Of a stretch of 53,116 bases of DNA, positions 10,266 through 25,104 are shown one piece after another. Source of the DNA: Bacteroidia bacterium (GTDB taxonomy: Bacteria; Bacteroidota; Bacteroidia; J057); the NCBI GenBank assembly GCA_030430575.1, contig JAUIKF010000058.1:1-53116 (forward strand). Reading direction: 5' to 3'. Below the pieces are notes generated by a model. The model ran no database searches. It was given only the letters and a program-made list of their open reading frames with translations, and was not told the DNA's origin. How positions within the stretch are numbered: the stretch's first letter is position 1; every line of letters begins with the position of its first letter. A program made the translations under genes and the position numbers.

Positions 10266-10309
10266 GATCGTGTTCAGAAAATGTGTGCTCTTATCTTTAC
10301 AGCAAAGCT

Positions 10310-10414
10310 GTCATTTCGACCAGCGGGAGAAATCTAACACTCCCTTTCGAACGGTTATTTCCAGGCTTCTAGACCACTGTGTTAGATTTCTCCTCGCAGA
10401 CTCGTCGAAATGAC
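10310..10414. repeat. Long imperfect palindrome of the TCATTTCGAC type
   Basis: The left arm, starting GTCATTTCGACCAGCGGGAG and running 10310-10340, pairs with a right arm at 10379-10414 that ends CTCGTCGAAATGAC. GAGAAATCTAACAC is matched by GTGTTAGATTTCTC. The loop is 38 bases. This arrangement (TCATTTCGAC...GAGAAATCT) matches a dispersed intergenic element that I recall as frequent in Bacteroidota genomes. It sits between the kinase and its response regulator and could act as a terminator or RNA-processing signal. Confidence 0.8.
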
Positions 10415-10474
10415 TTTTTGGAATGAGAAAAAAACTTTTTACAAACGATACTTAGACAGGGTAACCCAGATAAT

Positions 10475-11215
10475 ATGGCCAAACTAACCGTCCTGATAGT
10501 AGAAGATGAAGCATTGTATGCAGATCAATTAGAGATGCAAATAGAAGAGATGGGCTATGCTTCGGTAGGCATCGCAAGCAATGCCCTAGATGCGCTGACG
10601 TTGTTTCACACCGCTTCTCCCGATTTGATACTGATGGATATCAACCTGGCCGGAGATACCGATGGCATTCAATTGGCCCAAAAGATACAGGATACCCGCG
10701 AAACGCCTATCATTTTCATTACCTCCCTGACAGATAATAAGACCTTCGAAAGAGCCGTCCAGACCTTGCCCATTGCCTACCTGGAAAAACCATTGGGCAA
10801 GCGAAAGCTACAGCGGACCATTGAGCTGATTGTGAGCAGACTGAATCTCAAGGAGGAGGAGCCCTTTGATGCCTGGGAGCAAGATATACTGGTAAAAGAC
10901 CAGTTTTTCATCAAAGTCCGCAATCGGTTGGAGAAGGTGGAAATCCGTGCGATCGACTATGTAGAAGTCGAAAATCGGTATTGCTCTCTCTTCACTGCAC
11001 AGCGAAAATACGTCGTCAGAATGGCGCTCAAGGACCTGATCCATCGACTTCCTCAGGACCTCTTTATCCAAACTCACCGCAGCTTTATGGTCAATATGAA
11101 GAAGATCAATTCTTTGGATTTAGGGGAAAGTGTCCTCTATATAGGGGAAAAGGGCCTCCCCCTCGGCAAGAGCTATCGCGAGCAAGTGATGAAGAAATTG
11201 AATTTCCTTGCTTGA
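10475..11215 (+). CDS. LytTR-family response regulator
   Basis: The 246-residue protein has a receiver domain (residues about 3-120) with acidic pocket residues Glu10 and Asp11 (VEDE), phospho-acceptor Asp55 (LILMDINLAG) and a conserved Lys in the LEKPLGK segment. A LytTR DNA-binding domain follows (about 140-245) with the typical IDYVEVENRYCSLFT and FIQTHRSFMVNMKKI segments. LytTR regulators bind direct repeats upstream of target genes. It is the presumed partner of the TPR histidine kinase just upstream; a 44 bp palindrome follows it. Confidence 0.95.
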   Translation: MAKLTVLIVEDEALYADQLEMQIEEMGYASVGIASNALDALTLFHTASPDLILMDINLAGDTDGIQLAQKIQDTRETPIIFITSLTDNKTFERAVQTLPIAYLEKPLGKRKLQRTIELIVSRLNLKEEEPFDAWEQDILVKDQFFIKVRNRLEKVEIRAIDYVEVENRYCSLFTAQRKYVVRMALKDLIHRLPQDLFIQTHRSFMVNMKKINSLDLGESVLYIGEKGLPLGKSYREQVMKKLNFLA

Positions 11216-11515
11216 GGAAGGGGGAGGATTATTAATTGATAGATGATTGATTGATTCATTAATTCATTCAGACGCGCGCAAAATGTTGTAGGGTCAGGAG
11301 ATCTCCTGACCCTACAACATTTTTCTGTCCCATCGAGGATTACGCGAAGACCCCATTCACAGTCCGGAAATCCTCGATAGCTTTGTCTTTTTCCCTTCAC
11401 AACATCCCCCTTTCCGTTCGCAACATCCAGCCTGACATTCACACCCAATGTCCCACATCCCGCATGCCCTGCTTGTAGGTTTGTTGTCATCATTCACCTA
11501 CAAATTAATTGTACC
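11216..11515. other. Intergenic region with palindromes
   Basis: No gene is seen between the response regulator and the next exported protein. The interval contains a run of ATTGATT/ATTCATT simple repeats (11232-11270), a 44 bp perfect palindrome (11280-11323), and a second inverted repeat of ATCGAGGATT with AATCCTCGAT (about 11333-11377). The promoter of the downstream gene is probably within the last 150 bp, but I could not place it. Confidence 0.5.
11280..11323. terminator. 44 bp perfect palindrome, probable bidirectional terminator
   Basis: The sequence AAATGTTGTAGGGTCAGGAG (11281-11300) is followed at once by its complement, centred between 11301 and 11302, and then by a short T run. 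Every base of 11280-11323 pairs. It lies 65 bp after the response regulator stop, so it is a natural terminator. A perfect stem this long may also form a cruciform. Confidence 0.7.
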
Positions 11516-12658
11516 ATGAAACAACAAATTTCAATGAAACATGGCATCATGATCGGAATCATGCTCAGCTTCTTCCTGAGCATTCGAGGCCAAACCATGA
11601 CCAACCAGACTACGCTTAGCATTGAGTCGGGCCTAGCCGTGAATTGGGAGGGCGACTTTGTAAATGAAGGGGGCGGTGATGTGGTCCTGAACGGATCGTT
11701 GGTCCTTGAAGGCGACCTCACCAACAACAGCAACAATACCCTCACCACAGGAACGGGCTATGTGATTCTGAAAGGGACCAGCCAACAAGTTATTGGCGGC
11801 AGCAAGGAAATTCGCTTGTATGGCCTCACCCATGACAACACGGGCGGCACCCTGCTCAATCAAGACCTTGAAGTGGAGGGTAGGATCACCATGATCAAAG
11901 GGAAACTGGACCTGAATGGAAAGATCATCGACCTTGGATCGACGGGGGAAATTGATGGAGAAAGCAATGCCAGCCGCATCATGGGCTCTTCTGGGAAGGT
12001 CGTCCTAGTTCGCACCCTCAATAACATTGATGAACAAGACCTTGCAGGGATCGGGTTGGGGATAGATGTAAATGCCAATATGGGTTCTACGCTTATCGAG
12101 CGCTCTCATCAAGTGCGTACCCTTGGCAGTGGGACCAGTATCAAGCGGTCCATCAATATCCAACCGACGAATAATAATGGGCTCAATGCGGCCATTCGCT
12201 TATTCTACTTCTCCGATGAACTGAATGGACAAAACCCCAATTCCCTGGACTTATTTAGAAAACCCAATGGCGCTGCCTGGACGGTCAATACAAACAGCGT
12301 AACGGGAAATGGCTATGTAGACGGCAATGGGTACAATAGCTTGGGTTTGTTCACGCTGAGCAGCAACGGCACCACTGCCTTGGAAAATCTCCGCCCTGCC
12401 CTCGCTGTCCGGTATTTCCCCAATCCATTGGCACAAGGACAGTTTTTACGAATTGACGGCTTACTGGCAGGTGACTATCAACTCTTCCTGTATGACCTTA
12501 CAGGCAAGCAGGTCTGGAAACAAGAGCGGAAAATCCATACGGCTGGCGGTACGGAGAAAATCGATTTACCTCTTCTGCCAAATGGCCTCTACACCTTCCG
12601 AATCCTTTCGGACAAATACGCCCCTACAACGGGCAAACTTCAAATTCACTCACATTAA
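11516..12658 (+). CDS. Exported protein with T9SS type A sorting domain
   Basis: The 380-residue product has an N-terminal signal segment (about residues 7-25, ILSFF-like core ending IRGQ); the start may be the first ATG or the Met at codon 7. The middle, residues about 30-290, is rich in N, G and T with a repetitive beta-strand pattern (VNWEGDFVNEGGGDVVLNGSLVLEGDLTNN is the start of it, given only in outline), like a beta-helix or autotransporter-type fold. The last ~80 residues form a T9SS type A domain (VRYFPNPLAQGQFLRI, LFLYDLTGKQVW, LPNGLYTFRIL). It is probably secreted to the surface. It is likely co-transcribed with the next gene, 36 bp downstream. Confidence 0.85.
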   Translation: MKQQISMKHGIMIGIMLSFFLSIRGQTMTNQTTLSIESGLAVNWEGDFVNEGGGDVVLNGSLVLEGDLTNNSNNTLTTGTGYVILKGTSQQVIGGSKEIRLYGLTHDNTGGTLLNQDLEVEGRITMIKGKLDLNGKIIDLGSTGEIDGESNASRIMGSSGKVVLVRTLNNIDEQDLAGIGLGIDVNANMGSTLIERSHQVRTLGSGTSIKRSINIQPTNNNGLNAAIRLFYFSDELNGQNPNSLDLFRKPNGAAWTVNTNSVTGNGYVDGNGYNSLGLFTLSSNGTTALENLRPALAVRYFPNPLAQGQFLRIDGLLAGDYQLFLYDLTGKQVWKQERKIHTAGGTEKIDLPLLPNGLYTFRILSDKYAPTTGKLQIHSH

Positions 12659-12694
12659 TCTTATCACACCTTTTTACCTAAAAAAACAATTATC

Positions 12695-13843
12695 ATGAAA
12701 AAGATATTCATTACCCTCGCGATTATTTGTGCTGCTACTTTCCTCTATGCACAAAACTTAGGGATCGGCACGACCAACCCAAACGAGAAAGTTCACATTG
12801 AAGGCGCAGGCAGTCAAACACTCAAACTTCAAGCTACCTCAGGAAGTCCCGCAATGGAATTGGTAAGAGGTACTGGGGCCTTTGGAAGTGGTGATTGGCG
12901 CATCAAAAATTCAGGAGGAGACCTTGAATTCACCGCCAATACCAATCAATTCCTTACCCTCCGTCCTCATGGGGATGTGTTTCTAGACGGAAAACTCAAA
13001 ATCGGCAGTGGTACCAACAGCCCCAGAGGGGAACTGGACCTGGTAGCAACGTCACCGATCCTATCAGCCGAGGCCACCAATAATGGATCTGGCCTTCAGA
13101 TCAGGATCCATGGGCAGCCTAGCGGAACTTCCACGCTGTTCAGGGTCATTAATGGCATATCAAATACGAAATTCACCGTGCGAGCAAATGGGTATGTAAC
13201 TGTTTCAGATCAATTGGGAGTCAATAAATATGATCCTGACGCTCGATTTTCCGTTCAGGGCAAGACCTCTGATGATGAAATCTTTTTGGTAAGAAGGTCT
13301 AATGGAGCAGGTGGTTTTTATGTAGAGGAGTTAAGCTCAGGCGCAGCAAAAACTACGTCTTGGGGGGATATGCATGTTCAAGGAACCCTCAGCAAGAATG
13401 GTGGTTCTTTCAAAATCGACCACCCACAGGACCCTGCCAATAAATACCTCTACCACTCCTTTGTAGAGTCTCCTGACATGATGAATGTCTACAATGGCAA
13501 TATCACCACGGATGCCCAAGGCATGGCAGTCATTACCCTTCCCGAGTATTTTGAGACCTTGAACCGGGACTTCCGTTATCAGTTGACCTGCATTGGCACG
13601 TTTGCACAGGCCATCGTCTTGGAAGAAGTAGCAGGTAACCAATTTAAAATCCAAACAACAGATCCCAATGTAAAAGTAAGCTGGCAAGTGACGGGCATCC
13701 GCCAAGACCCCTGGGCCAATGCCCACCGTATCCCCAACGCCATAGAGAAGCCAGAAGAAGAAAAAGGGCGTTACCTCAATCCAGAATTGTACGGACAGCC
13801 TGAAAGTAAGTCGCTTAATTATGATGGAGAGGGGAGTAAATAG
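12695..13843 (+). CDS. Exported tail-fibre-like surface protein
   Basis: This 382-residue protein has a signal peptide (residues 1-19, ending FLYAQ). It then has the LGIGTTNPNEKVHIEG motif, widespread at the start of Bacteroidota fibre-like proteins that resemble phage tail-fibre regions. The middle consists of short beta-rich repeats (FTVRANGYVTVSDQLGV). The C-terminal ~140 residues form a distinct domain (KYLYHSFVESPDMMNVYNGN, then VSWQVTGIRQDPWANAHRI) that I recall from long bacterial exported proteins but cannot assign a function. There is no T9SS tail. It probably forms a trimeric fibre at the cell surface, which is inference. Confidence 0.8.
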   Translation: MKKIFITLAIICAATFLYAQNLGIGTTNPNEKVHIEGAGSQTLKLQATSGSPAMELVRGTGAFGSGDWRIKNSGGDLEFTANTNQFLTLRPHGDVFLDGKLKIGSGTNSPRGELDLVATSPILSAEATNNGSGLQIRIHGQPSGTSTLFRVINGISNTKFTVRANGYVTVSDQLGVNKYDPDARFSVQGKTSDDEIFLVRRSNGAGGFYVEELSSGAAKTTSWGDMHVQGTLSKNGGSFKIDHPQDPANKYLYHSFVESPDMMNVYNGNITTDAQGMAVITLPEYFETLNRDFRYQLTCIGTFAQAIVLEEVAGNQFKIQTTDPNVKVSWQVTGIRQDPWANAHRIPNAIEKPEEEKGRYLNPELYGQPESKSLNYDGEGSK

Positions 13844-13890
13844 CGCAAAAGACTGTTAGCGCCTGTAGCACTTTTTAGCTGACAACATAA

Positions 13891-13976
13891 GCATCCCGAA
13901 TTTTCATTATTGAAAATTCGGGATGCTCTTTTGGGGCATCGACATCTAACAGGCTTTCTTCATCCTGTTAGATGTC
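13891..13976. terminator. Two tandem hairpins between convergent genes
   Basis: The first stem is GCATCCCGAATTTTCA (13891-13906) with TGAAAATTCGGGATGC (13911-13926), four-base loop, followed by TCTTTT; all 16 pairs match. The second is GACATCTAACAGG (13941-13953) with CCTGTTAGATGTC (13964-13976), all 13 pairs matching. They lie between the fibre-like gene and the convergent HlyD gene and should terminate transcription from both sides. Confidence 0.8.
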
Positions 13977-14038
13977 CAAGCTCGCGCCCCTCAGCAAAAA
14001 ATCGCCTGTTGGAAATGGTTAATGGGTTTTTCAATATA

Positions 14039-15340
14039 CTACCTTGTGAAAAAAATGGCGATCTCAAAAAAGACCCGTTCCAATAGCCTTAATTCCTCTG
14101 TAATTATTTCTGCCTCCCCATAGAACTCTGCTCGAAATTCAAGCTGGGTATTATAAGTGGTCTTCAGTCCTTGGGTTAATTCGAGGTTGACCAGATACTG
14201 GTCCTGATGAGGCAAGGGAGAGATATGCGAGACAATAGCAGGCAGCATTCCAAACTCCTTATAATTGTAGTTGTCGAGCTTGATATTGGCAGGTTGGCCG
14301 ATGCGTAGTTTGCCTATATTTTGTTGGGTAAGAGTGGCTTTGCCGATGATATGCTGGGTATGGGGCAAAAGGCTAATCACGGCTTTACCAGCCTCTACCT
14401 GTTGGCTCACCGCCCACAGGTCAAAAAAGGCTACCTGGCCACTTTGCGGGGCCAGCAACATATAAGTTTGCTTCCAGTCTTCGATGGCGCTTTTCAACTG
14501 ACTCAACGCTTCCTGGGCTTCCACCTGAAGCCTTAGTCCATCCTCCTGCACCTGCTGCCCAAACTCTCCCATCTGTTGATGGTAAGATAGGCGTTGAATC
14601 TCATTGTTGTGAATCTGTGCTTCCAACTGCTTGATCACCACCCCCTTCTGTATTTTCACCACTTCATATTGCTCTAGTTCAACACGTGAGATGTTTCGCT
14701 GCTCAAATAGCTTCCGATTAATTTCGTATGCTTTTTCGGCTAATTCTAATTCACGCTTTTTGAGTTCCAATTGCGCTTCGATATTGCTGTTAAGGGCCTT
14801 GATCTCAGCCGTTTGGCGGCTGGTGATGCTTTTGACCCCCCTGTGATAAGGGTCGCTCTTTGTGAAAAACTGCCAAGCTTCCAGCGTCTTCCGGAATTCA
14901 GAGTAGCTGTGTTGGAGGCTGCCTAGTTGGTAGGTTGGAAGGGGCAAGAGGCTTGTCAAGGTTCCTGTTCCCGCCAGGCTTTTCTCCAGTTGAAGCACAT
15001 CTCGCCAATCAGCTGTGGACTCAAAAGCCAGTAGGCAGTCGCCTTGTTGGACAAGCTCTTTTTCCGCCACAAAGATGTGAGCGATCTTTCCAGAAGTAGG
15101 CGCTGCCAGACGTAGCGGAGGAGGATCTGAAGTAAGCACTAGTTGGGCAACCAGGACATCAGGGTATTTGACAAACCAGGCGAGCGTGAACGCCGCCAGG
15201 ATGGCAAATAAGATCACAGTTAGCCCCCAACGAATGATCCATGCAGGGACTTGTCCCATGATTTCCTGGACTTCTTCGGAGCGTAGTTCGATGTGAGAAG
15301 TGTATGCTTCCTCGTCTTCGTGTTTCCTTATGTTATTCAT
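14039..15340 (-). CDS. HlyD family secretion adaptor of the RiPP exporter
   Basis: The 433-residue protein is a membrane fusion (periplasmic adaptor) protein of the HlyD type. A short cytoplasmic N-terminus is followed by one transmembrane helix (residues about 34-57), a lipoyl-like beta segment (LAAPTSGKIAHIFVAEKELVQ), a long coiled coil (about 165-275) and the second half of the lipoyl and beta-barrel domains (LLAPQSGQVAFFD, IGKLRIGQPANIKLDNY). Its start overlaps the ABC transporter stop by 4 bases (ATGA), showing tight coupling. It would link the C39 ABC exporter to an outer-membrane TolC-type channel, which is not encoded in the window. Confidence 0.93.
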   Translation of the reverse strand: MNNIRKHEDEEAYTSHIELRSEEVQEIMGQVPAWIIRWGLTVILFAILAAFTLAWFVKYPDVLVAQLVLTSDPPPLRLAAPTSGKIAHIFVAEKELVQQGDCLLAFESTADWRDVLQLEKSLAGTGTLTSLLPLPTYQLGSLQHSYSEFRKTLEAWQFFTKSDPYHRGVKSITSRQTAEIKALNSNIEAQLELKKRELELAEKAYEINRKLFEQRNISRVELEQYEVVKIQKGVVIKQLEAQIHNNEIQRLSYHQQMGEFGQQVQEDGLRLQVEAQEALSQLKSAIEDWKQTYMLLAPQSGQVAFFDLWAVSQQVEAGKAVISLLPHTQHIIGKATLTQQNIGKLRIGQPANIKLDNYNYKEFGMLPAIVSHISPLPHQDQYLVNLELTQGLKTTYNTQLEFRAEFYGEAEIITEELRLLERVFFEIAIFFTR

Positions 15341-17523
15341 GTGCCTAGTTCTAGCTGATTTTTGACTAATGTATAATAAGCACCTCGCAAGGCGGCCAAC
15401 TCCTCATGCGTGCCGCGCTCTACAATCTTGCCCTGATCCATCACGATGATTTGGTCTGCATGTTTGACGGTGCTGAGACGATGTGCCACGACCACGACGG
15501 TTCGCCCCTCCAAAAAGCGGTTAAGCTTTTTCATAATCGTCGCTTCATTATTGGCGTCCAGGGCACTGGTCGCTTCATCAAAGAACAGGTATTCCGGGTT
15601 TTTGTAAACGGCTCTGGCAATGAGCAATCGCTGTTTTTGACCACCACTTAAGCCAATGCCATTTTGACCAATTTGGGTATTATAGGCCATAGGCAAGCGT
15701 TCGATATCTTCCTGAATATTGGCAATCTGTACCGCTTGGCGTAAGCGTGTTTTGTTCACCGGCTTCTCCAAAGCGATATTGTGTGCAATGGTATCATCGA
15801 AAATGAAGCCTTCTTGCATCACAGTGCCACAAGCTTCCCGCCAGGTATGGCTTGAGATATGTTGGAGCCACGATGCGCCCACGTTGATATGGCCGTTTTG
15901 CGGTTCATAAAATTTGAGGAGCATTTTGATGAGTGTTGTTTTTCCACTGCCACTCATGCCGACGATAGCGGTGGTTTTTCCGGCGGGAATTTCCAGGCTA
16001 ATGTCTTGGAGGACCCAAGGGGAATCGGGGCTTCCATAGCGAAAACTTACGTTTTCAAGCTTGATCTCTCGTCGAGGCGGTAGCTCGTGGAGCAAGACTT
16101 CCTGATCCTCCTCCTCATTCTCCATTTGGTGGATTTCCCCCAAGCGTTCCATGCTTATTTTGGCATCCTGCGCTTGCTGAATAAAGCTGATAATCTGGCT
16201 GATAGGGCCATTGAGCTGACCTATAATGGAGGTAATGGCCATCATCATCCCCAATGTCATGTCTCCCTCTATGACGGCCTTAGCTGCCACAAAAGAGATG
16301 ATGATATTTTGTAAATGGTTAAAAAAACGGCTACCTCCCTGCTGGTACTGATTGAGGGATAGCTTTTTGAGATTGAGGCGAAAGAGTTTTGCCTGAATAC
16401 GCTCCCAACGCCACCGCTCCTGCCTTTCAATATTGTTGAGCTTGATTTCTTGCATACCATAGACCAGTTGAATCAGGTTGCTCTGGTCTGCCGCCATTTG
16501 CGCAAAGCTCTTGTGGTCCAGCTGGGCCCGTTTTTTCAAAAATAAAAGCACCCAACTAATGTAAAGGGTACTCCCTCCCACAAAAATAAAGAAGATGGGC
16601 ATGGAAAAGATGGCCAGTACAAGTCCAAAGATGAAGATATTGAAGATGGAAAAAAGAGAGGTAAGGACAGAGCCTGTGAGGAATTGCTCGATTCGGTGGT
16701 GATCCTGTATGCGCTGAATAATGTCTCCTACCTGTTTGGCCTCAAAAAAGCCAATCGGCAAGCGCATCAGTTTGATGAGAAAATCAGATATGATGGAGAT
16801 ATTGATGCGCGTGCTCAAGTGGATCAAGATCCAGGCACGGATAAATTCTACCGCCGTCTGACTGGCAAACAAGACCAACTGCGCCAGCAGAATGAGGTAA
16901 ATAAAGCTGATATTGCGGGAGCCAATGCCAAAGTCTACCACTGCTTGTGTGAGAAAAGGGAAAACCAGTTGCAATACACTGCCAAGCACGAGACCCAATA
17001 TCAATTGCAGCAGAAACTTTTTGTAGGGCAGGAGGTACCGAAGCAGATACCCAAAACTGGCTTTGCCCGTTTGGTCCTCTTCCTGCTCATAGAACGCTGG
17101 GGTCGGTTCCACCAGAAGGGCAATGCCTTCGGCCTTTCCGCTTTTTTCATCCTTCCCCCAATGGGCGAGAAATTCCTCTTTCTGATAGGAAACAAGCCCA
17201 AAGGCAGGATCTGCTACATATATTTTGTTGCCTTTCACCTTGTGAACCACGACAAAGTGGTTTTGATTCCAATAGGCGATCGCAGGCAGAGGAGCCTCTT
17301 CTGTCAATTGATGATAGCTGATCTTGACCGCCAACGTGCGCATGCCGATGTCTTCGGCAATCTGGCTGATCCCTTGCAAGGAAATGCCCTCTCGGTTCAT
17401 ATGCGCCCGCTCACGCAAGCTTTGAAGAGAATAACGTTTGCCATAGTGATGTGCAATCATGCGCACACAGCTAGGCCCGCAATCCATCTGATCGAGTTGT
17501 TGGTGGAAGGGAAAGGAAATCAT
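15337..17523 (-). CDS. C39 peptidase-containing ABC transporter (leader-cleaving exporter)
   Basis: This 728-residue protein combines three modules. Residues 1 to about 140 are a C39 cysteine peptidase with the QMDCGPSC motif (Cys15), a later His (NHFVVVHKV) and Asp (YVADPAFG), which complete the catalytic triad. Residues about 165-460 are a six-helix exporter membrane domain. Residues about 490-728 are an ATPase with Walker A GMSGSGKTT (about 521-529), signature LSGGQKQR, Walker B YLFFDEATSALD and H-loop VVAHRLSTV. Such proteins cut leaders after a double glycine and export the core. The two precursor peptides upstream have GG-ended leaders, so they are its evident substrates. It is coupled by overlap to the HlyD gene. 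Confidence 0.96.
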   Translation of the reverse strand: MISFPFHQQLDQMDCGPSCVRMIAHHYGKRYSLQSLRERAHMNREGISLQGISQIAEDIGMRTLAVKISYHQLTEEAPLPAIAYWNQNHFVVVHKVKGNKIYVADPAFGLVSYQKEEFLAHWGKDEKSGKAEGIALLVEPTPAFYEQEEDQTGKASFGYLLRYLLPYKKFLLQLILGLVLGSVLQLVFPFLTQAVVDFGIGSRNISFIYLILLAQLVLFASQTAVEFIRAWILIHLSTRINISIISDFLIKLMRLPIGFFEAKQVGDIIQRIQDHHRIEQFLTGSVLTSLFSIFNIFIFGLVLAIFSMPIFFIFVGGSTLYISWVLLFLKKRAQLDHKSFAQMAADQSNLIQLVYGMQEIKLNNIERQERWRWERIQAKLFRLNLKKLSLNQYQQGGSRFFNHLQNIIISFVAAKAVIEGDMTLGMMMAITSIIGQLNGPISQIISFIQQAQDAKISMERLGEIHQMENEEEDQEVLLHELPPRREIKLENVSFRYGSPDSPWVLQDISLEIPAGKTTAIVGMSGSGKTTLIKMLLKFYEPQNGHINVGASWLQHISSHTWREACGTVMQEGFIFDDTIAHNIALEKPVNKTRLRQAVQIANIQEDIERLPMAYNTQIGQNGIGLSGGQKQRLLIARAVYKNPEYLFFDEATSALDANNEATIMKKLNRFLEGRTVVVVAHRLSTVKHADQIIVMDQGKIVERGTHEELAALRGAYYTLVKNQLELGT

Positions 17524-17558
17524 CTGATATTTGTTAGACTAAAAACATTATTCCCTAA

Positions 17559-18581
17559 TCAAGCCCAGGTATTGGAAAAAGGGTTGAACGTACAGTCCTC
17601 CACTTTTTTATAGGTTCCATCCTGATACATGAGGTCTGAATAACTGAGGCACATAAACCGAAATTGACAGGCGCTACATTTTGCTACCTGCTGATTGCTG
17701 ATATGCCATTTCTCCTGAAAATCCTCCCCTTGGATGACCGTAGAGACCGTATCCTTAGCGATATTTCCAAAGGATGCTGAATGGGTAAAGTAATTTTTGA
17801 TATTGCCTTCAGGGTCTATGCAGACCTTTTTGTTCAGGCCAGGATTATGTGACTGGGCTTCTGTATAGAAAGCTAAGGTTTGATAAAACAGGCTTTCATC
17901 GTATGACTCAGGCTGCTGATAGTCCAGTGCTCTCGTCACATAATGCAGGAAGACATTGTCATATTTTTCAGCTACCGTGCCTGCATTGATGTAATGGCTC
18001 GTTTCAGCCGATTGTCCATACACCGTACTTATTACCCTGAGATCTGGAAATGAAAGCGCCTTATACTGCTCAAAGGTCAAACAATCGTACTTAAACCTGA
18101 GATCCACAGATCTGGCGATGCTTGTTTCAAAAATGGATAAGAGTTCATCCAGCCGAGTGGCATCATACTGCTCTGCAAGCAGGAGCAGTTGAAAATGCCA
18201 ACACCCCAATTCAAGCAATTCCAACAATAGGCTCTGATAATCAAATTGCTCAATCCCTTCAATCGCAATAATGGCGTTATTGAGATGACCTGGGTGATGG
18301 TAGTGGAGGTCTATGGGGGGGAATTTCTGTGGCTCCTCCGTATAAAATCCGTATTCATTTTCTACGAAATGATTGAGGTAGGCATCTAGCCCCTCCTGCA
18401 AGTCAGGAAAAGTGGCTTTTACCTGAGCTACTGTATGACTTGTTAAGTCATTCTCGAGAAGGGCCGCGATCTCATTTTTGATCGGGAGATACCTGTTTCT
18501 GTGTACATCGAGGATGACACTGCCAGCGTGACCCTTCGTCAAGAAACAATTGGAGTATAGGGTGAAATAGGAGGAGTTCAT
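17559..18581 (-). CDS. gwsS: SPASM-domain peptide maturase of a grasp-with-spasm system
   Basis: The 340-residue protein matches the SPASM partner of the grasp-with-spasm RiPP class. It starts with YFTLYSNCFLTKGHAGSVI and has a C-terminal Cys cluster at residues 254, 302, 305, 311 and 330 (CSACQFRFMC and KKVEDC segments), as in an iron-sulfur-binding SPASM domain. I see no CxxxCxxC radical SAM motif in the N-terminal two thirds, so it may bind a cluster without radical chemistry or act as a recognition subunit. The frame is open to an ATG at 18656. The ATG at 18581 is preferred because it overlaps the stop of a 58-residue ORF (ATGA) and starts at the conserved N-terminus. The family identity is from memory of the motif layout. 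Confidence 0.82.
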   Translation of the reverse strand: MNSSYFTLYSNCFLTKGHAGSVILDVHRNRYLPIKNEIAALLENDLTSHTVAQVKATFPDLQEGLDAYLNHFVENEYGFYTEEPQKFPPIDLHYHHPGHLNNAIIAIEGIEQFDYQSLLLELLELGCWHFQLLLLAEQYDATRLDELLSIFETSIARSVDLRFKYDCLTFEQYKALSFPDLRVISTVYGQSAETSHYINAGTVAEKYDNVFLHYVTRALDYQQPESYDESLFYQTLAFYTEAQSHNPGLNKKVCIDPEGNIKNYFTHSASFGNIAKDTVSTVIQGEDFQEKWHISNQQVAKCSACQFRFMCLSYSDLMYQDGTYKKVEDCTFNPFSNTWA

Positions 18582-18754
18582 AGCTTGCTGACGGGTTTTT
18601 GGGGAAGGTGTGCAAGTAAGGTCCCATTGTGTCGTTGGGATTTTGTCTTTTTCCATACCAAAGCAGTGATGGTCCTGTCCTTATTGAAAGAGACCGTATT
18701 GAGGTGGTAGGTATAGGGAATGAGGGGGTTCGTTTTTATGTGAAATTTAGCCAT
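18578..18754 (-). CDS. 58-residue ORF overlapping both RiPP maturase genes
   Basis: An ATG at 18754-18752 opens a 58-codon frame ending in TGA at 18580-18578. The start lies inside the last codons of the ATP-grasp gene (ATGGCTAA, 8-base overlap) and the stop overlaps the preferred gwsS start (ATGA, 4-base overlap). This is the arrangement of a translationally coupled gene. The product is basic: MAKFHIKTNPLIPY at the N-terminus, VSFNKDRTITALVWKKTKSQ in the middle, KPVSKL at the end; it has no Cys, signal peptide or membrane segment. I do not recognise the family. It could be a small recognition or chaperone subunit of the maturase complex. If it is not real, the gap to gwsS would be 165 bases. 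Confidence 0.7.
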   Translation of the reverse strand: MAKFHIKTNPLIPYTYHLNTVSFNKDRTITALVWKKTKSQRHNGTLLAHLPQKPVSKL

Positions 18755-19763
18755 GGTAGATTTTGATTAATTCTTCTGCGATCAGCTTACTCAAGTTGAA
18801 ATTGCAAGGGTTGGAGATAAAACCGTATTGACCGACAGGGTTGATTTCAAGGAAATAATACGCTCCGTCAGTGCCTTTGATCATGTCAATAGAGCCATTG
18901 TCAAGCCCTAGTTCATCCATGAGCAATGAGATTTTATGCGCCAAGGCCTTGGGGAGTTGATAGGGCACCTTTCGGGTAGGGCGCGCATTGTCATAGTTCC
19001 TGAAATCAATGCTTGTCTGTTCATTGTCCTGGGTAAACATGGCCGCAGCATAGCATGTCCCTTTGAGGTAGAATATCCGCAGCTCAAACTGCTTGTGGAT
19101 ATTTTGCTGAAAAAGGGTAGGGAAAAAAGCCTCGGGGAAATCGTGCGTATCCTGAATCCTTTCAGTAAGGCCCTGAATCAAGAATCCTTCTTCCATAACC
19201 CCCTGAGGCTGTACCACCTCAAAAAGAGATTTGCTGATCAGGTCCTGGTTCTGATCTTGAAAAAAAGCGTTTATGCGGTCCATATTGGCACTTACCAGGG
19301 TTGGAGGGACCGAGATCCCGTGCTTTCGCGCCATGTCCAACACATGCATTTTGTTCAGCCCCGTTTTTTTGTAGGAACCGATTTTTTTTGAAGGATCATT
19401 GAGGACCAGGTCAAAAAAGGTGTAGAGGTAATACTTGTAATTGAGTTGGAGGGCACTGAGCATGTCGGAATCCTTCTTGAAGGTAGGAAAAAGGATATCC
19501 GCTTGCGGAATTTCCCTATTGGCCAATTGCTGCATCAACAGGGGCGATGGCCTCCGAAACCAAAATGCAAGCTGAGCGTCGAGTACTGATAGTTTTTTGT
19601 CATTCTGTATCGAGAGACTTACACTTGCCAGTCTCGTGAATAGCTGTTCTACGGCTTCAGTATCCTCATCATTGATTCTAATAAATGGATACTGATAATA
19701 GCTCAGCCAGTCAATCACCTCATTTGTGGTGATATCGTCCTTCTCGGAAAAAATGTAAATCAT
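18747..19763 (-). CDS. gwsG: ATP-grasp peptide maturase of a grasp-with-spasm system
   Basis: This 338-residue ATP-grasp ligase resembles the graspetide-type enzymes that form ester or amide bonds between side chains of a precursor peptide. It starts MIYIFSEKDDITTNEVIDWL, as these maturases do. A central GLNKMHVLDMARKHGISVPPT segment belongs to the ATP-grasp fold, and the metal-binding end has Asp293 (GSIDMIKG), Glu306 and Asn308 (FLEINPVGQYG). It sits downstream of two precursor genes and upstream of the SPASM gene, which is the gene order of grasp-with-spasm loci. Its exact bond chemistry here is unproven; it probably uses Asp or Glu carboxylates in the precursor core as acceptors. Confidence 0.9.
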   Translation of the reverse strand: MIYIFSEKDDITTNEVIDWLSYYQYPFIRINDEDTEAVEQLFTRLASVSLSIQNDKKLSVLDAQLAFWFRRPSPLLMQQLANREIPQADILFPTFKKDSDMLSALQLNYKYYLYTFFDLVLNDPSKKIGSYKKTGLNKMHVLDMARKHGISVPPTLVSANMDRINAFFQDQNQDLISKSLFEVVQPQGVMEEGFLIQGLTERIQDTHDFPEAFFPTLFQQNIHKQFELRIFYLKGTCYAAAMFTQDNEQTSIDFRNYDNARPTRKVPYQLPKALAHKISLLMDELGLDNGSIDMIKGTDGAYYFLEINPVGQYGFISNPCNFNLSKLIAEELIKIYHG

Positions 19764-19808
19764 ACGGAATAAGAGATCTGTGTAGGGGAGACTTTTGGGG
19801 AAAGTAGC

Positions 19809-19832
19809 CCTCCCTCTGTTACCTGAGGGAGG
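19809..19832 (-). terminator. Hairpin between precursor and maturase genes
   Basis: CCTCCCTC (19809-19816) pairs perfectly with GAGGGAGG (19825-19832) around an 8-base loop. It lies 46 bases upstream of the gwsG start and 57 bases after the stop of the nearer precursor. A GC-rich stem here, without a strong T-tract on the minus strand, would suit a partial terminator or mRNA-stabilising structure that keeps precursor transcripts above maturase transcripts. Confidence 0.5.
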
Positions 19833-19888
19833 ACGCTGGAGGCATTATCCTGAATCAGGCAGGTTGAAAGCGTGATTCATAGCTGTTT

Positions 19889-20137
19889 CTAAGTCGGCAG
19901 CGTAGGAAACAAAATGCCGCCCCCATCAGGTCTGTAATCGGGGTCAAGGCGGGTATCACTGTCACAATTGCCCACATCTCCTTGCGTGTGTGCATCATTG
20001 GTATCGACGGTAAAGCGGGTATGGGTTCCCCCCGTTCCACCTTGCATGGACCGAAGCTGTCCCATGTCTGTTAATGCTTCGCTCTTGAACGCATCTAAGA
20101 GGCTGTCAGAGTGCTTTTTTGAATGATTCTTTTTCAT
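19889..20137 (-). CDS. RiPP precursor peptide A (GG leader)
   Basis: The 82-residue peptide has a 34-residue leader beginning MKKNHSKKHSDSLLDAFK and ending GQLRSMQGG, the double glycine expected for cleavage by the C39 domain. The core is 48 residues, beginning TGGTHTRFTVD and then carrying NDAHTQGDVGNCDSDTR, followed by a tail rich in P, G and D (RPDGGGILFPTLPT). The leader is near-identical to that of precursor B. The core is rich in Thr, Asp and Ser, residues a graspetide ligase could link, and has one Cys. It is too small to be judged by homology alone; location and leader support it strongly. Confidence 0.88.
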   Translation of the reverse strand: MKKNHSKKHSDSLLDAFKSEALTDMGQLRSMQGGTGGTHTRFTVDTNDAHTQGDVGNCDSDTRLDPDYRPDGGGILFPTLPT

Positions 20138-20200
20138 GATCTTATGGATATTAGTTTTGTGAATTGAATTGTCTGGAATAATCTGCGCTAAATGGAAGAC

Positions 20201-20443
20201 TTAATCTAAGGTGGGGAAAGTGGGATTATATACATTCGACCCAACATCTAACCTTTCTCTGGTATCAGTGTCACAGTTCCCTACATCCCCTTGGGTATGT
20301 GCATCGTTTGTGGTCACAGTATATTTGGTCCTGTCACCCTGACCTCCACTGATGTTGGTGAGTTGCCCCTTGTCCAATAATGTCTCGCCTTTGAAGGCGT
20401 ACAAGAGGCTGTCAGAGTGCTTTTTTGAATGATTCTTTTTCAT
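20201..20443 (-). CDS. RiPP precursor peptide B (GG leader)
   Basis: The 80-residue peptide has a 34-residue leader beginning MKKNHSKKHSDSLLYAFK and ending GQLTNISGG. The 46-residue core begins QGDRTKYTVTT, contains NDAHTQGDVGNCDTDTR and ends NPTFPTLD. The leader differs from that of precursor A at few places up to GQL. The core motif NDAHTQGDVGNCD is identical, while the flanking and tail sequences differ. This pattern, constant leader and motif with variable tail, fits duplicated precursors under diversifying selection. It is the first gene of the minus-strand RiPP cluster, so its upstream region should hold the main promoter. Confidence 0.88.
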   Translation of the reverse strand: MKKNHSKKHSDSLLYAFKGETLLDKGQLTNISGGQGDRTKYTVTTNDAHTQGDVGNCDTDTRERLDVGSNVYNPTFPTLD

Positions 20444-20506
20444 AATTCTTGATTAGTTTTATCAGTTGAAAAAATGGCCTTAGAACGTTTCAGGCTACAT
20501 GAGAAC

Positions 20507-20518
20507 AGAAGTACTTCT
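20507..20518. promoter_or_regulatory. Perfect 12 bp palindrome in divergent region
   Basis: AGAAGTACTTCT is a perfect palindrome, with weaker symmetry just outside it (AACAG and TTGTT). It lies in the roughly 200 bp gap between the minus-strand precursor genes and the plus-strand sigma factor gene, so it could be an operator acting on either. No clear TAnnTTTG box was placed in this gap. Function is a guess. Confidence 0.3.
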
Positions 20519-20646
20519 TGTTTGTAAGTGCCTTCCACCTGTACATATCCTATGGTTCTCAGAACATAACCCATGATCCCTGATTTTTTTTGAAAAAATG
20601 AGTAGCCTAAGGAAATTTGAACTTATTGGGTTATTATTTTGAAATA

Positions 20647-21267
20647 ATGACTAATACTTATAGACACCATCGCAATAACATCTCCTTGGAAGGATTAAAG
20701 TCATCAGACCCTAAGCAGGTAGAAATGGCGGTCACGGAATTGTATGAGCGATATTATCCTGCTGTATCCGGCTATCTTATGAAAAGAGGCCTGGGGGACC
20801 TGGATATTCAGGATGTTTTTCAAGACGGGATCATGACCTTTCTTCGTGCCTTGAATGATGGAAAGGTAAAAGAGGGGGCCAATGTTGGAGGGTACTTTTT
20901 TACGATATGTAAGCACCTCGGCATGAAAAGGGGTGAAAAAAATGCGCGAATGGCTACAGAAGATATTGATTTTTCACGGCTAGAGGAGGTGCCTGAAGAT
21001 TGGGAGGCCAAAGAAGCGGATGAAGAAAGACAAAAACTGCGCTCAAAAAGCTGGGCGCTTATGGATAGCCTGGGACAGTCTTGCCAGGAATTGTTGAAAA
21101 GAGCCTTTGAAGGCAATCAAAAAATCATGGATTTCTTTGCAGAGCTGGGCTATAAAAATGCCCAGGTAGCACGTACCGCAAAATATAAATGCCTGCAACG
21201 CTTGAAGAAAAAACTATCGCAAGATCCTCAGGCAAAAAAACTTATAAATACGCTATTTCATGAATGA
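20647..21267 (+). CDS. ECF-type RNA polymerase sigma factor
   Basis: The 206-residue protein has sigma-70 region 2 (ELYERYYPAVSGYL, then DIQDVFQDGIMTFLRAL) and a region 4-like helix-turn-helix (CQELLKRAF through GYKNAQVARTAKYKCLQRLKKKL). The frame runs back to a TTG at 20617, but the ATG at 20647 gives a normal N-terminus. The gene overlaps the next one by 8 bases, which tells that its product is made together with the membrane TPR protein. It is divergent from the RiPP genes. ECF factors usually drive a small regulon, often including their own operon, so control of the CHAT protein or of the RiPP cluster is possible but not shown. Confidence 0.87.
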   Translation: MTNTYRHHRNNISLEGLKSSDPKQVEMAVTELYERYYPAVSGYLMKRGLGDLDIQDVFQDGIMTFLRALNDGKVKEGANVGGYFFTICKHLGMKRGEKNARMATEDIDFSRLEEVPEDWEAKEADEERQKLRSKSWALMDSLGQSCQELLKRAFEGNQKIMDFFAELGYKNAQVARTAKYKCLQRLKKKLSQDPQAKKLINTLFHE

Positions 21268-22012
21268 TTCGGAACAGATCACTCAAATCGCAGCCTACCT
21301 CGATGAGGCGATGTCGCCTGAAGAAAGGCAGGCATTCGAGGAGAGGGTAAGCAATGATCCCGCACTCGCTCGCGAGGTGCGAACGATGAAGGCACTTCGT
21401 GATGATAGTCGGATGTACTTCCGCCAAAAAGCCCTCAGCCAACAAATTGCCAAGCAAAACGAAACCAGCCAAACACGTCCTTTATGGCGGCAACGAACTT
21501 TTCAAATCAGCTTAGCCATTGCCGCTGGAATCGCTTTTTTTTTGCTTATTAGGCCTATTCTTTTTGTTGAACAAACGCAGGACCACGAGGCCCTTTTTGC
21601 CCAATATTTTGAAGCCTATGATGAAAGCGGTTTGATGACAGAAAGAGGGGATACTTCCGATATTGATTTGTGGAAAGAAGCAGGAAATGCCTATCAGCAA
21701 GGCGATTATGCTGCTGCTGCAACATCCTTTATGACCATTATTCAGGAAGACTCAACCTTTATCCCAGCCCGGTTTTACCTGGCCAATAGCCTGCTCGCAG
21801 CACGAGCCATTGAGGAGGCCATCCCTCACCTTACTTTTATTGTCGAAAGAGATGACTTCCTGTACGGCCGACAATCACGCTGGCTTTTGGCCTTGGCCTA
21901 TGTCCACACTCAAGCGTCCGAACAGGCAATTCCCATATTGGAGGAACTTCAGCGTTCCAATGATGCCTTGGGGCGTCAGGCAAAAAAATTATTGAGGGCG
22001 ATTCCTCAATAG
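21260..22012 (+). CDS. Membrane anti-sigma-like protein with TPR domain
   Basis: The 250-residue product has a short N-terminal helical region (residues 1-75, YLDEAMSPEERQAFEERV), a transmembrane helix (81-103) and a periplasmic C-terminal part with TPR-like repeats (about 140-250, GNAYQQGDYAAAATSFMTII and FYLANSLLAARAIEEAIPHL). It overlaps the sigma gene by 8 bases. The layout, sigma followed by a single-pass protein with an N-terminal cytoplasmic helix, fits an anti-sigma factor that holds the sigma at the membrane, with the TPR part sensing a periplasmic partner. There is no zinc-finger (HxxxCxxC) motif. The role is inferred. Confidence 0.75.
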   Translation: MNDSEQITQIAAYLDEAMSPEERQAFEERVSNDPALAREVRTMKALRDDSRMYFRQKALSQQIAKQNETSQTRPLWRQRTFQISLAIAAGIAFFLLIRPILFVEQTQDHEALFAQYFEAYDESGLMTERGDTSDIDLWKEAGNAYQQGDYAAAATSFMTIIQEDSTFIPARFYLANSLLAARAIEEAIPHLTFIVERDDFLYGRQSRWLLALAYVHTQASEQAIPILEELQRSNDALGRQAKKLLRAIPQ

Positions 22013-24865
22013 GAGAAAAAAATACCCGCCTGCGGCCAGGAATATCAGCAATGCGATTAATGCAATTGGCCAACTGAACCAATTCCCTCCCGTGTAAATG
22101 GGGGCAGGATTCCCAATGACCCGTAAGTGTGCCCAGTAATACGGATGAGATTTCAGCGGATCTGCTTTCAGCAAGTATGCCTCCTTGCTGGCCTTCATCG
22201 CCTGAGAAAGTGCCTGCCCTTCTGAAATCCCTTTAAAAAAATTAGTACTCACTTCATAGCTAGACCGGTCATTGGCTTGCCAAAGACTTGCGACGAGATT
22301 CGGACACCCGGCATAGCTAAAGGCGCGTGCCAGACTCATCAAGCCATCTCCCTTGCTGAGCTTGCCCCAGCCAGAGTTGCAGGCACTCAGGTATATCAGC
22401 CTGTTGGGGAAATCCATCGCTTGGATTTCTGCTAGAAATAGTGCCCCATCATCAAGTGTATCGATAGGGGCGTGAAAGTAAATGCGAGAAAGCTCAGGTC
22501 TTTCCTCGTTTATCATCGCATGACTTGCTATATGTATGATGGTTTTTTTGGAAAAAGCTTTTTTAAAATTCGTTTCTGTGGCAGCCATACCAATCAATAA
22601 TTCTCCCCCAAACAACTCGTAAACCTGCTCTGCTTCCCTGCTCGCCCAGGTAAGGGCTTGAAGATCTCCCCGAACCGTATCCCCACGGCCTTGTATCATC
22701 CGCTCTCCAGTTCCGCCAAAAGTAGGGGCAATAGCCAGGACACTAGGTCGGCGCTTATGGTCGAAGGATTGTAAAAAAGCATTTCCAGAAAAAGCATAGC
22801 TGAAATTATAGGTATGCAGGCAATAGGGTAAGTCTTGGTAAGATGAGTGCTTAGGGTCAGGAGCGGTGTCCAGCAATGCTTCAAACGGGATAAGGTTCAA
22901 GTGTTGATGTGGCAAAATGACCCAATCTGAAATGCCCTGAAAACGCTGACAGGCGGGTTTTAGCAGCAATTGGTATAACGCATAAGCTTCCTGTTGGTAG
23001 CTTTGAAAAGCTTGTTTGGCTTCTTGGGAAGGGGGCACCTGCTGAAGGGCCTTCCGAAAATTTTGCAAACGTTCTGCGAAATTTGGCGGAACTGATTCTT
23101 CCCAGAAATTTATCTGATCCGCCACAATGACCATAAAATACAGTTGCGTATCCTGTAAAAAATAATGAATAAGCCCTTGGGAAGGAAATGACGTCAGGTT
23201 TTCCTGAATATTGGCCAAAATCAGCCTCCCATCCATCTGTTCCAATTGGCTAAAAAGGATTCGGTTTTCAGGATAATTCTGCTTGAGAAAATCCCGCTCG
23301 ACTTCTAGTTGGTGCACTAAAAGTTCCAGGCTATCTGTGTTCTCATTTTTCTGTTGGGCGAAACGGATTCTTTCCTGAATGATATATTGGTTGAGGCTGT
23401 CAACTTTCTGCATCAAGGTGTCAGCCTTCATCAAGGATCGGATGGCTGTATGCTGTTGCAGCAATAGCGCCTTTCCCTGCTCCATGTACTGAAATGCCTT
23501 ATGCAGGTAGGTCGGGTCCTGATACTGATCATATAGGAGGCGGCAAGCTTCCAGCCCATATTGGAAAATATCATAGTCTATTTCTACCGACTGAAAATCA
23601 TCTTTTTGATGGATGATCTCTAGTGCAAGCTTCTCAAGTCTGCTGATGCAAGCATCTGCATGCGTCAAGGTAGCCTGAAGATAGGCTGGATCTGGACGTT
23701 TTGCGTAGCTATCTAAAAATAGCTGCGCTTTTTTTCTAAGGATAGATGCGATCCAGGGTTCATTCGATTGTTGATCGAAAAAGGGGACTTCAAAAATCGT
23801 TTTGTAAGAAAAAGAAGTCGCAAAAAATGACAAGGCTTCCTGGTGAGTCGCTAAGGCAAGAGAATCAAGCCCCTGATATTCAAAAGTTTCACTTTTGTGG
23901 TAGAGATATACCCCGATTCTCATCGGTAGGAAATTGGGGTGGCGTTTGGCCAGGTGAATAGCTTTTGCATAATAGGTATGCGCAAGCGGTAATTGATTCG
24001 CTTCCTTGGCAATATTCCCCAAATGTACCAAGCCTTGAATAAAGAAATGATTGGTAGAGTCAAGGCCATTCTCAAGCAGTATCTGCAAAGAAGCTCGTAC
24101 ACTTTGGCTACTTTTCTCAAATTGCCCTAATTCCAAATAGAACTCTCCTAGTCTCTGGTATGCGCCCACCTTACTATCATAGGATGCCTGAGGATCGTTG
24201 ACGACATCTAGTAATAGTACTTTTTCTTTTTCAGGTTGATTCAGCCCATACGGCGCATAGACAGCGGAGAGGCCACTCCGTAAGCCGATTCCAAAAAGGG
24301 CTGACTTATCTGGTGCATTTTCGCGAATATTCAACCCTTGCTTATAATAGGATTCCGCCTGGGAAAAATCTCCTAACCTGCGATGAATTTTTCCCAATCT
24401 CCCATAAGAACGGACGCGCAAATAATTAGCCTTTTCAGTATTTGGCAGGAGGGAAATACATGTCAAAAAGGCTTCTTTAGCCTTTGGGGGATTTTCTGCT
24501 GCGTAGGTAAAATAGGTGCCGATCGTAAAATATCCCCGAGCTATTTCTAAGGGAGAAACTTGAAGGCGAATCGCTATGGGTAAGCCTTTTTGAGCATATT
24601 CTAGGGCTGCGTTCAGGTTACGGCTATTGTAATAAAACTGACTTTGCCATAGACAGCTCAAAGCGTAGTCTTCATTCAGGGTGTCCCCCTTTTGCTCATA
24701 GGCATCGATCACGCCTTCCATGTAATGCCGACTGCTATCGGCCCATCCATTATTGAGCAGTTGATCAGCCATTGCTCGTGAGTTCCCTTGGGGGGCTACA
24801 TCTTGCTGCTGCGCAGCAAGACCCAAGGAAAATGTGATCAAAAAAAATAAAATAAGATGTTTCAT
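21989..24865 (-). CDS. CHAT-domain (caspase-like) protein with TPR repeats
   Basis: This 958-residue protein has a signal peptide (residues 1-20). Tetratricopeptide-like repeats follow (about 30-350), then a helical middle. A CHAT peptidase-like domain occupies the C-terminal third, with the caspase-type dyad His782 (IIHIASHAMINEERPE) and Cys829 (LIYLSACNSGWG), followed by LVASLWQANDRSSYEV. A C-terminal transmembrane helix (about 930-950) and a short basic tail would anchor it, with the CHAT domain on the periplasmic side if the signal is cleaved. Its 3' end overlaps the anti-sigma-like gene by 24 bases on the opposite strand. CHAT proteins with TPRs are common in Bacteroidota; the substrate is unknown. 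Confidence 0.92.
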   Translation of the reverse strand: MKHLILFFLITFSLGLAAQQQDVAPQGNSRAMADQLLNNGWADSSRHYMEGVIDAYEQKGDTLNEDYALSCLWQSQFYYNSRNLNAALEYAQKGLPIAIRLQVSPLEIARGYFTIGTYFTYAAENPPKAKEAFLTCISLLPNTEKANYLRVRSYGRLGKIHRRLGDFSQAESYYKQGLNIRENAPDKSALFGIGLRSGLSAVYAPYGLNQPEKEKVLLLDVVNDPQASYDSKVGAYQRLGEFYLELGQFEKSSQSVRASLQILLENGLDSTNHFFIQGLVHLGNIAKEANQLPLAHTYYAKAIHLAKRHPNFLPMRIGVYLYHKSETFEYQGLDSLALATHQEALSFFATSFSYKTIFEVPFFDQQSNEPWIASILRKKAQLFLDSYAKRPDPAYLQATLTHADACISRLEKLALEIIHQKDDFQSVEIDYDIFQYGLEACRLLYDQYQDPTYLHKAFQYMEQGKALLLQQHTAIRSLMKADTLMQKVDSLNQYIIQERIRFAQQKNENTDSLELLVHQLEVERDFLKQNYPENRILFSQLEQMDGRLILANIQENLTSFPSQGLIHYFLQDTQLYFMVIVADQINFWEESVPPNFAERLQNFRKALQQVPPSQEAKQAFQSYQQEAYALYQLLLKPACQRFQGISDWVILPHQHLNLIPFEALLDTAPDPKHSSYQDLPYCLHTYNFSYAFSGNAFLQSFDHKRRPSVLAIAPTFGGTGERMIQGRGDTVRGDLQALTWASREAEQVYELFGGELLIGMAATETNFKKAFSKKTIIHIASHAMINEERPELSRIYFHAPIDTLDDGALFLAEIQAMDFPNRLIYLSACNSGWGKLSKGDGLMSLARAFSYAGCPNLVASLWQANDRSSYEVSTNFFKGISEGQALSQAMKASKEAYLLKADPLKSHPYYWAHLRVIGNPAPIYTGGNWFSWPIALIALLIFLAAGGYFFLLLRNRPQ

Positions 24866-24953
24866 ACTTCGTGAGAATGCTCCAATCCCTATGGGAAAGT
24901 AAGAAAAATTTAGGGTTTATCTTTTTTAGTAAAAATGGCTGGTTATAGGAATT

Positions 24954-25000: not shown

Positions 25001-25104
25001 ATCCCCAATATTTACTGACAATCCCTATTTAGGGAATAAGAAGAATCAACGAATAGGATATCTTGATGACAGCCGTCACTTCATATTTTGATTTTCATTT
25101 CTAT

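Follow-up and report, generated by a model that had tools for sequence, protein, structure and literature searches.

Described systems closest to the cluster

Clusters of the grasp-with-spasm class are recognised by adjacent genes for an ATP-grasp ligase (model TIGR04192) and a SPASM protein (TIGR04193), with precursor genes whose leaders end in Gly-Gly (GG) upstream and genes for a C39-peptidase ABC exporter (C39-ABC) and an HlyD adaptor downstream. The same arrangement occupies positions 14039-20443, on the minus strand, of the window analysed here, which is the whole of contig JAUIKF010000058.1 (assembly GCA_030430575.1, Bacteroidia bacterium, J057; 53,116 nt). The cluster differs from the class as described in that its precursors are covered by no model, its SPASM protein lacks the cysteines of auxiliary cluster I (AuxI), and that protein scores barely above the cut-off of the SPASM model. 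The reading that we consider probable is that this is a grasp-with-spasm cluster making a graspetide, in which the SPASM protein, together with a small protein of the LPL type, acts as a non-catalytic partner that recruits the precursor to the ligase. No characterised grasp-with-spasm product was found in the literature searched.

A published grouping with the same composition is branch 5 of PMC8939145, which that paper describes as 190 loci with SPASM and LPL genes, "highly specific" for Bacteroides. There the SPASM protein is termed a radical S-adenosylmethionine (SAM) enzyme that may form thioethers, and LPL is suggested to be a PqqD-like chaperone or to contact the ligase. Like branch 5, the window has a Bacteroidota ATP-grasp and SPASM pair and a small LPL-type gene directly upstream of the SPASM gene. 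PMC13097080 notes that SPASM proteins are often associated with radical SAM enzymes; its group 14, which has a SPASM protein and a peptidase-type exporter in common with the window, is probably the window's group, both assignments being made by description and not from the trees or networks of those papers. The same text reports that the rosaritide ligase works only with a partner, MirC, whose N-domain weakly resembles a RiPP (ribosomally synthesised and post-translationally modified peptide) recognition element (RRE). What it has in common with the arrangement proposed here is a ligase dependent on a partner that is not itself a ligase and carries a weakly RRE-like domain; it differs in that MirC has a chaperone domain, was originally predicted to be a PpiC-type isomerase and is not a SPASM protein. 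Rosaritide is another system, but its dependence on a partner makes the idea of a partner protein plausible.

The microviridin and chryseoviridin pathways (MvdC/MvdD, AMdnB, CdnC) share with the window a homologous ATP-grasp ligase and a core of Thr/Ser and Asp/Glu residues. In microviridins the leader sequence PFFARFL binds the ligase and starts catalysis, as stated in PMC8939145; the window lacks a PFF leader motif and has SPASM and LPL partners instead. TigE, SuiB, CteB and PqqE resemble the predicted window protein in their barrel and SPASM fold, TigE and CteB also covering its N-terminal domain, and differ from it in that the window protein has neither the SAM-binding cluster motif nor the AuxI cysteines. 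The families TIGR04150 and TIGR04347 are likewise SPASM proteins, named pseudo-rSAM, and weakly match 19 and 2, respectively, of the 73 members of the SPASM family studied here; they are other families, the window protein scoring 22.5 bits against a TIGR04150 cut-off of 250. Since NCBI names other SPASM proteins pseudo-rSAM, the notion of a dead radical SAM protein is not itself new, and the LPL gene and part of the idea linking LPL to the ligase are already present in PMC8939145. A statement that the SPASM family of grasp-with-spasm clusters has lost the motif or carries an RRE was not found in the literature searched, whose scope left aside Haft and Basu 2011 and the 2021 graspetide survey. 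What is added here is the LPL gene in the window, the core motif, the pattern of AuxI and AuxII, the recognition fold and the family-wide sign of a retired enzyme.

The ligase and the comparison set

The ligase gene (18747-19763, minus strand, 338 aa) reaches 268.7 bits with TIGR04192, over the cut-off of 230, and matches TIGR04185 at 8.1e-41, below that model's cut-off. Profile comparison with solved ligases returned AMdnB (7m4s, 5.9e-52), an entry named "ATP grasp ligase" (5ig9, 6.4e-50) and CdnC (7mgv, 2.7e-45), matches that place it with the MvdC/MvdD/AMdnB kind. The SPASM protein scores 182.7 bits against TIGR04193 (cut-off 175). With both cut-offs passed, the filing of the pair as grasp-with-spasm in the initial annotation is upheld; the outcome that would have spoken against it, matches of the two genes to unrelated families, was not seen. 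Judged from its genes, the whole row is a grasp-with-spasm cluster of the graspetide kind, and the earlier description stands in this respect. The ligase columns corresponding to the leader-binding residues of MdnC were also inspected and set aside as too variable.

Of the 295 genomes sampled from the class, 22 (roughly one in thirteen) have a ligase above the TIGR04192 cut-off, as do 4 of 13 from the family, and 10 of 296 sampled from the phylum exceed the TIGR04193 cut-off; the genome of the window has one match to each model. Comparisons were made across 114 loci (113 and the window) that were picked by ligase similarity and share ancestry; the loci L033 and L065 are one contig, and the proteins of L126 and L127 are identical. 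Profile searches gave 110 SPASM open reading frames (ORFs), fragments included, from 103 of the 114 loci, and the SPASM alignment comprises 103 rows with at least 300 codons between stops (102 distinct sequences), three of which fall below 300 aa once trimmed to the first ATG. Eleven loci have a ligase and no SPASM gene; at three of these (L105, L123 and L125) the contig sequence stops near the ligase, and L141 was left out. Both genes are present at 103 loci, and at 101 of these the SPASM gene follows the ligase gene immediately, at most 400 bp downstream. Candidate precursors form a mechanical list of 153 rows, 140 from SPASM loci and 13 from elsewhere, that includes false entries, one of which sits inside a CHAT gene of the window.

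The SPASM protein

Judged by its sequence, the SPASM protein is no radical enzyme. The CX3CX2C motif of the SAM-binding cluster occurs in 0 of 110 SPASM ORFs, variant spacings not having been systematically searched, and the beta1-alpha1 loop in which it is expected measures 5-9 aa in 99 of 101 rows and is therefore too short to hold it. TIGR04193 matches all 73 SPASM members; at E 0.01 the SPASM Pfam model matches 38 and the Radical_SAM Pfam model none; the SPASM domain of the window protein (PF13186) scores 18.6, just short of the gathering score of 21.5. The auxiliary clusters were assigned from the known cysteine spacing of SPASM domains, that of anSMEcpe. The cysteines of auxiliary cluster II (AuxII; CX2CX5C followed by a further C) are present in 102 of 103 rows, in the window as C327, C330, C336 and C355 of a 365-aa reading. 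Those of AuxI are complete in 63 rows, absent from 37 (the window included) and partial in 3. The state lacking AuxI is assumed to be a loss because radical-SAM/SPASM enzymes have this cluster. A quick tree was built from 100 rows, 60 of them AuxI-bearing. All but one of these 60 form a single supported group, and the window falls with L066 and L067 (support 99) within a supported set of 12 rows, all of which lack AuxI.

If the protein were nonetheless a working radical enzyme, it would link core cysteines through thioethers beside the ester bonds made by the ligase. The naming of the branch 5 protein as a radical SAM enzyme and the proposal of thioethers to conserved cysteines, both in PMC8939145, favour such a role, as does a core cysteine that is invariant in the clade of the window. 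The absent motif and the short loop speak against it, and a companion gene that could supply the chemistry is scarce: an ORF of at least 200 aa with CX3CX2C in its first 200 residues was found at 5 of 114 loci, the window not among them. Four of these five ORFs look radical-SAM or related by motif alone, and the one at L135 does not. Core cysteines show no clear link to AuxI either, at least one candidate core having a Cys at 35 of 50 loci with AuxI and 21 of 30 without, and every candidate core having one at 23 of 50 and 18 of 30. With the motif missing and a companion lacking at 109 of 114 loci, radical chemistry by this protein was rejected, and we hold it to be very improbable.

A second alternative accepts a non-radical SPASM protein and gives AuxII a direct part in catalysis or sensing, as a redox switch or Lewis acid, in place of holding the fold. 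The near-universal retention of AuxII, despite the loss of the SAM-cluster motif and the absence of AuxI from 37 rows, is what recommends it, but a structural role explains that conservation equally well, and we rate this alternative as unlikely, though well above radical chemistry. The overall pattern suggests that SPASM chemistry has been lost across the family and that the protein instead hands the peptide to the ligase.

The predicted fold is consistent with such a role. The AlphaFold model of the window protein (mean predicted local distance difference test score, pLDDT, 90.0; predicted template-modelling score, pTM, 0.85) has as its best solved Foldseek matches TigE (2.3e-6), SuiB (3.0e-6) and 5why (2.0e-5), the last a sactipeptide-type maturase found alongside its companion entry 5wgg, which is named CteB in PMC10352776. 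Alignment to TigE with VIA-align gave Z 12.0 with a root-mean-square deviation (rmsd) of 7.4 over 296 residues, and residues 29-105 aligned to the leader-binding lasso protein B1 (6jx3_B) with Z 9.6 and rmsd 1.9 over 76. These residues are predicted to adopt the PqqD-like winged helix-turn-helix fold of an RRE, and the predicted domain order is a precursor-recognition domain, a radical-SAM-like barrel and a SPASM domain. A model of the AuxI-bearing protein of L115 again matched SuiB and 5why/5wgg best. Comparison of the SPASM profile with sequences of solved chains found a lone chain, 7uek ("OT3"), at E 6.8e-5 over the barrel part of that chain, and this match was not relied on.

The LPL-type gene

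The initial annotation listed six genes of the row, which stand, and missed a seventh between the ligase and SPASM genes (18578-18754, minus strand, 58 aa). This gene starts, with its ATG, 8 nt before the ligase gene ends, and its TGA shares an ATGA with an in-frame SPASM ATG at 18581. Because of this overlap, because the TIGR04193 match starts at residue 30 of the 365-aa reading, and because the model has low confidence over the first 20 residues of that reading (mean pLDDT 52 and 62), the SPASM gene probably starts at 18581 (17559-18581, minus strand, 340 aa) and not at 18656 as first listed (17559-18656, 365 aa). The ligase-SPASM gap is 90 bp as listed and 165 bp to the likely start, and the small gene fills it.

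In a genome of the same genus (G001), the contig L065 (record JAUIGE010000008.1, also G001:C68) carries an orthologue at the same position that is 61% identical. The proportions of synonymous and nonsynonymous differences (pS and pN) are 0.60 and 0.233, and the gene appears to be under purifying selection. A small ORF of 45-100 aa that starts with ATG at most 80 nt from the ligase end follows 103 of 107 SPASM-adjacent ligases. The same is true of 31 among 376 unrelated long ORFs from those loci and, at seven SPASM-free loci, of 2 among 10 ligases. When a loose LPL motif is required as well, the counts become 101/107, 16/376 and 1/10, and with both ends of the motif they become 70/107, 2/376 and 0/10; other forms of this positional count gave 93 and 96 of 101 loci. 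At L115 (8998-10302; record labelled as a Thermoanaerobaculum metagenome-assembled genome, MAG), LPL is fused to the N terminus of the SPASM protein. The placing of the SPASM gene right behind that of the ligase, the overlapping starts and stops, the recognition-type fold and this fusion are the grounds on which a three-protein complex is proposed.

A profile of LPL from which the window and L065 had been left out placed the window ORF at the top of 507 small ORFs, with the L065 copy next. The LPL rows have LP in common and, closer to the end, FYKxIS; the LP and KPISK columns are occupied in the window protein by NPLIPY and KPVSK. In position, and loosely in sequence, the 58-aa gene corresponds to the LPL family described in PMC8939145.

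These shared segments raise the possibility that LPL, and not the precursor leader, bears a "P-h-h-x-h"-like segment that activates the ATP-grasp ligase, the RRE serving for recruitment only. A strict pattern for a PFFARFL-like sequence matches neither window leader and none of the 140 candidates from SPASM loci; among the 13 from SPASM-free loci it matches 5, all of them at L058, L059 and L061. PMC8939145 notes both the resemblance and the lack of the motif in branch 5 precursors. Set against this split-leader arrangement are the weakness of the resemblance, the fact that the sole fusion joins LPL to the SPASM protein and not to the ligase, and a model of that fusion in which the LPL part is unfolded and shows no docking; we regard it as doubtful, if more credible than a catalytic AuxII.

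As a separate observation, the loci L058, L059 and L061, from the same class, have two ATP-grasp genes, no SPASM gene, PFFxxFLE leaders and MKYPSD cores, and we presume them to be chryseoviridin-like.

The precursors and the core motif

Both precursors are of the GG-leader type, as first described, with the GG at residues 33-34 and cores of 46 and 48 residues after it. Precursor 1 (20201-20443, minus strand) has 80 aa, with a 34-aa leader and a 46-aa core, and precursor 2 (19889-20137, minus strand) has 82 aa, with a 34-aa leader and a 48-aa core. No NCBIfam, Pfam or PHROG model matched them with a meaningful score. Precursor 2 is 67% identical to precursor 1, and the relatives of precursor 1 in G001 are 53% and 50% identical to it. 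G001 also has a second grasp-with-spasm cluster at L032 (G001:C20:422157-439107), with a ligase over the cut-off and a different precursor core sequence.

The core motif lies in precursor 1 at 20261-20311 (minus strand, TNDAHTQGDVGNCDTDT) and in precursor 2 at 19952-20002 (minus strand, TNDAHTQGDVGNCDSDT). Over this stretch of 17 codons the two window genes differ by 8 synonymous-only codons and 1 amino acid change (pS 0.75, pN 0.025), and comparison with the two L065 precursors gives pN 0.074-0.135 and pS 0.54-0.95. By these comparisons, strong purifying selection acts on the motif DxHTxxDxGxCDxD. Of 153 candidate cores, 8 match the pattern D-x-[HC]-T-x-x-D-x-G-x-C-D-x-D, as against none of 30,600 shuffled ones. 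The matches represent six distinct precursors from three lineages, to which the window, L065 and L066 contribute two apiece, L033 being a duplicate of L065.

Dx[HC]TxxDxGxCDxD has the Thr/Ser donors, Asp/Glu acceptors and fixed spacing of a graspetide-type core. Its invariant residues include one Thr as the sole hydroxyl residue, four Asp and one Cys, and the simplest prediction would be one conserved Thr-Asp bond; further bonds at the extra Thr and Ser residues of the window peptides are possible. The peptides are probably cross-linked, to judge from the genes of the cluster. For the activity of the product, protease inhibition would be a guess by analogy with characterised graspetides.

Evidence against the partner role, and a damaged relative

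Several observations weigh against the reading of the SPASM protein as a recruiting partner with LPL. The TIGR04193 cut-off is cleared by a mere 7.7 bits, and none of the 73 SPASM members matches a PqqD/RRE Pfam model. Whole-chain template-modelling (TM) scores for the nine Foldseek matches with E of at most 0.001 are 0.23-0.39, with high rmsd, perhaps because the placement of domains differs. The LPL profile gives E 0.17 for the window ORF, not significant alone, and 0.29 for the L065 copy, so membership is not proven by sequence alone. In the L115 fusion model, computed from SPASM rows only, LPL residues 1-73 have pLDDT below 50 and show no docking. The contrast in leaders is drawn from few SPASM-free loci, and a loose pattern, Phhx(1,2)h, matches 7 of 140 candidate leaders at SPASM loci (one of them the false entry in the CHAT gene) against 6 of 13 at SPASM-free loci, neither window precursor matching. 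An attempt to dock LPL on the SPASM protein with mixed LPL and SPASM alignments was discarded, as the LPL rows were misplaced.

The nearest relative, at L065, adds a further difficulty. Both of its maturase genes are damaged (L065:8001-9549): the ligase gene lacks residues 54-141 (about 88 codons) and changes frame, and the SPASM gene lacks residues ~153-283 (about 131 codons, in frame); its precursors, LPL, exporter and adaptor are intact. This damage may be decay or poor assembly, the coverage of the contig being 2.7. Were it decay, the cluster of the window might itself be decaying or silent and yield no product, but the window genes are open, full length and joined by start-stop overlaps, purifying selection is indicated on the core and on LPL, and the coverage lowers the weight of the L065 lesions; a silent cluster is in our estimate very hard to credit.

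Export genes, intergenic features and neighbourhood

Downstream of the SPASM gene lie the exporter gene (15337-17523, minus strand, 728 aa), which encodes a Peptidase_C39 domain fused to ABC_membrane and ABC_tran domains (PF03412 7.9e-35, PF00664 8.8e-33 and PF00005 1.1e-29), and the gene for the HlyD-type membrane-fusion adaptor (14039-15340, minus strand, 433 aa; PF13437 2.8e-12; TIGR01843 5.7e-32, below cut-off); the two overlap by 4 nt. The domains expected of each protein are present, and the six genes first listed are open reading frames in one row on the minus strand, as the initial annotation had it. The C39-ABC and HlyD genes agree with its proposal that the peptide loses its leader and is exported, and they would account for both cleavage and export.

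In the gap between precursor 2 and the ligase gene a stem-loop (19807-19834, minus strand) was identified with a 10-bp stem, a loop of 8 and a weak T tract. The whole 125-nt gap has a folding z of -2.32, with 3 of 200 shuffles folding equally well, and the stem-loop is a possible attenuator that could yield surplus precursor transcript. It was not listed by the terminator scan. Promoter and terminator scans gave 14 and 8 hits against 10.1 and 6.6 in shuffles, which is near background, and at L065, where the precursor-ligase gap is 8 nt, the stem-loop is absent. In a synteny comparison of window positions 10001-26000 with L065 only two blocks match; because both lie inside the operon, its flanks are not conserved with L065.

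Near the downstream end of the cluster, on the plus strand, are a TPR histidine kinase with a LytTR response regulator after it (7884-11215) and a protein with a Por_Secre_tail domain, associated with type IX secretion sorting (11516-12658). On the other side (20617-24865) are divergent genes for a sigma-70 region 2 protein and a TPR protein, then a minus-strand CHAT-TPR protein, which has 23 matches in G001 and so belongs to a large paralogous family.

Proposed mechanism and implications

In the proposed pathway, the ribosome would make the two precursors, and the N-terminal RRE-fold domain of the SPASM protein would recognise and bind their leaders. The SPASM protein itself would descend from a radical-SAM peptide maturase that lost its catalytic cluster loop and, in this lineage, AuxI, and kept AuxII. 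Together with LPL it may form a partner complex that places the core on the ligase and switches the ligase on. The ligase would then phosphorylate Asp side chains of DxHTxxDxGxCDxD and link these, through ester or amide bonds, to Thr or another donor within the motif, and the C39-ABC protein would cut after the GG and export the product with HlyD. A broader form of the proposal holds that all grasp-with-spasm clusters combine a retired maturase as adaptor, capture by an RRE, an activating segment provided in trans by LPL, and an AuxII that is always kept; this extension is offered tentatively, and we would not bet on it.

If the SPASM partner is catalytically dead, the hunt for radical-made thioethers in these peptides would be misdirected, and the practical route to a product would be to co-express the ligase, LPL and the SPASM protein. 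The family would then show clearly how a radical enzyme can become an adaptor, with its losses still visible among living relatives: the SAM-cluster motif is gone from 110 of 110 ORFs, AuxI from 37 of 103 rows and AuxII from 1 of 103. Should the adaptor reading apply to all grasp-with-spasm clusters, a class that has been read as dual-chemistry, radical and ATP-grasp, would instead be one of single chemistry carried out by a three-part ligase complex.

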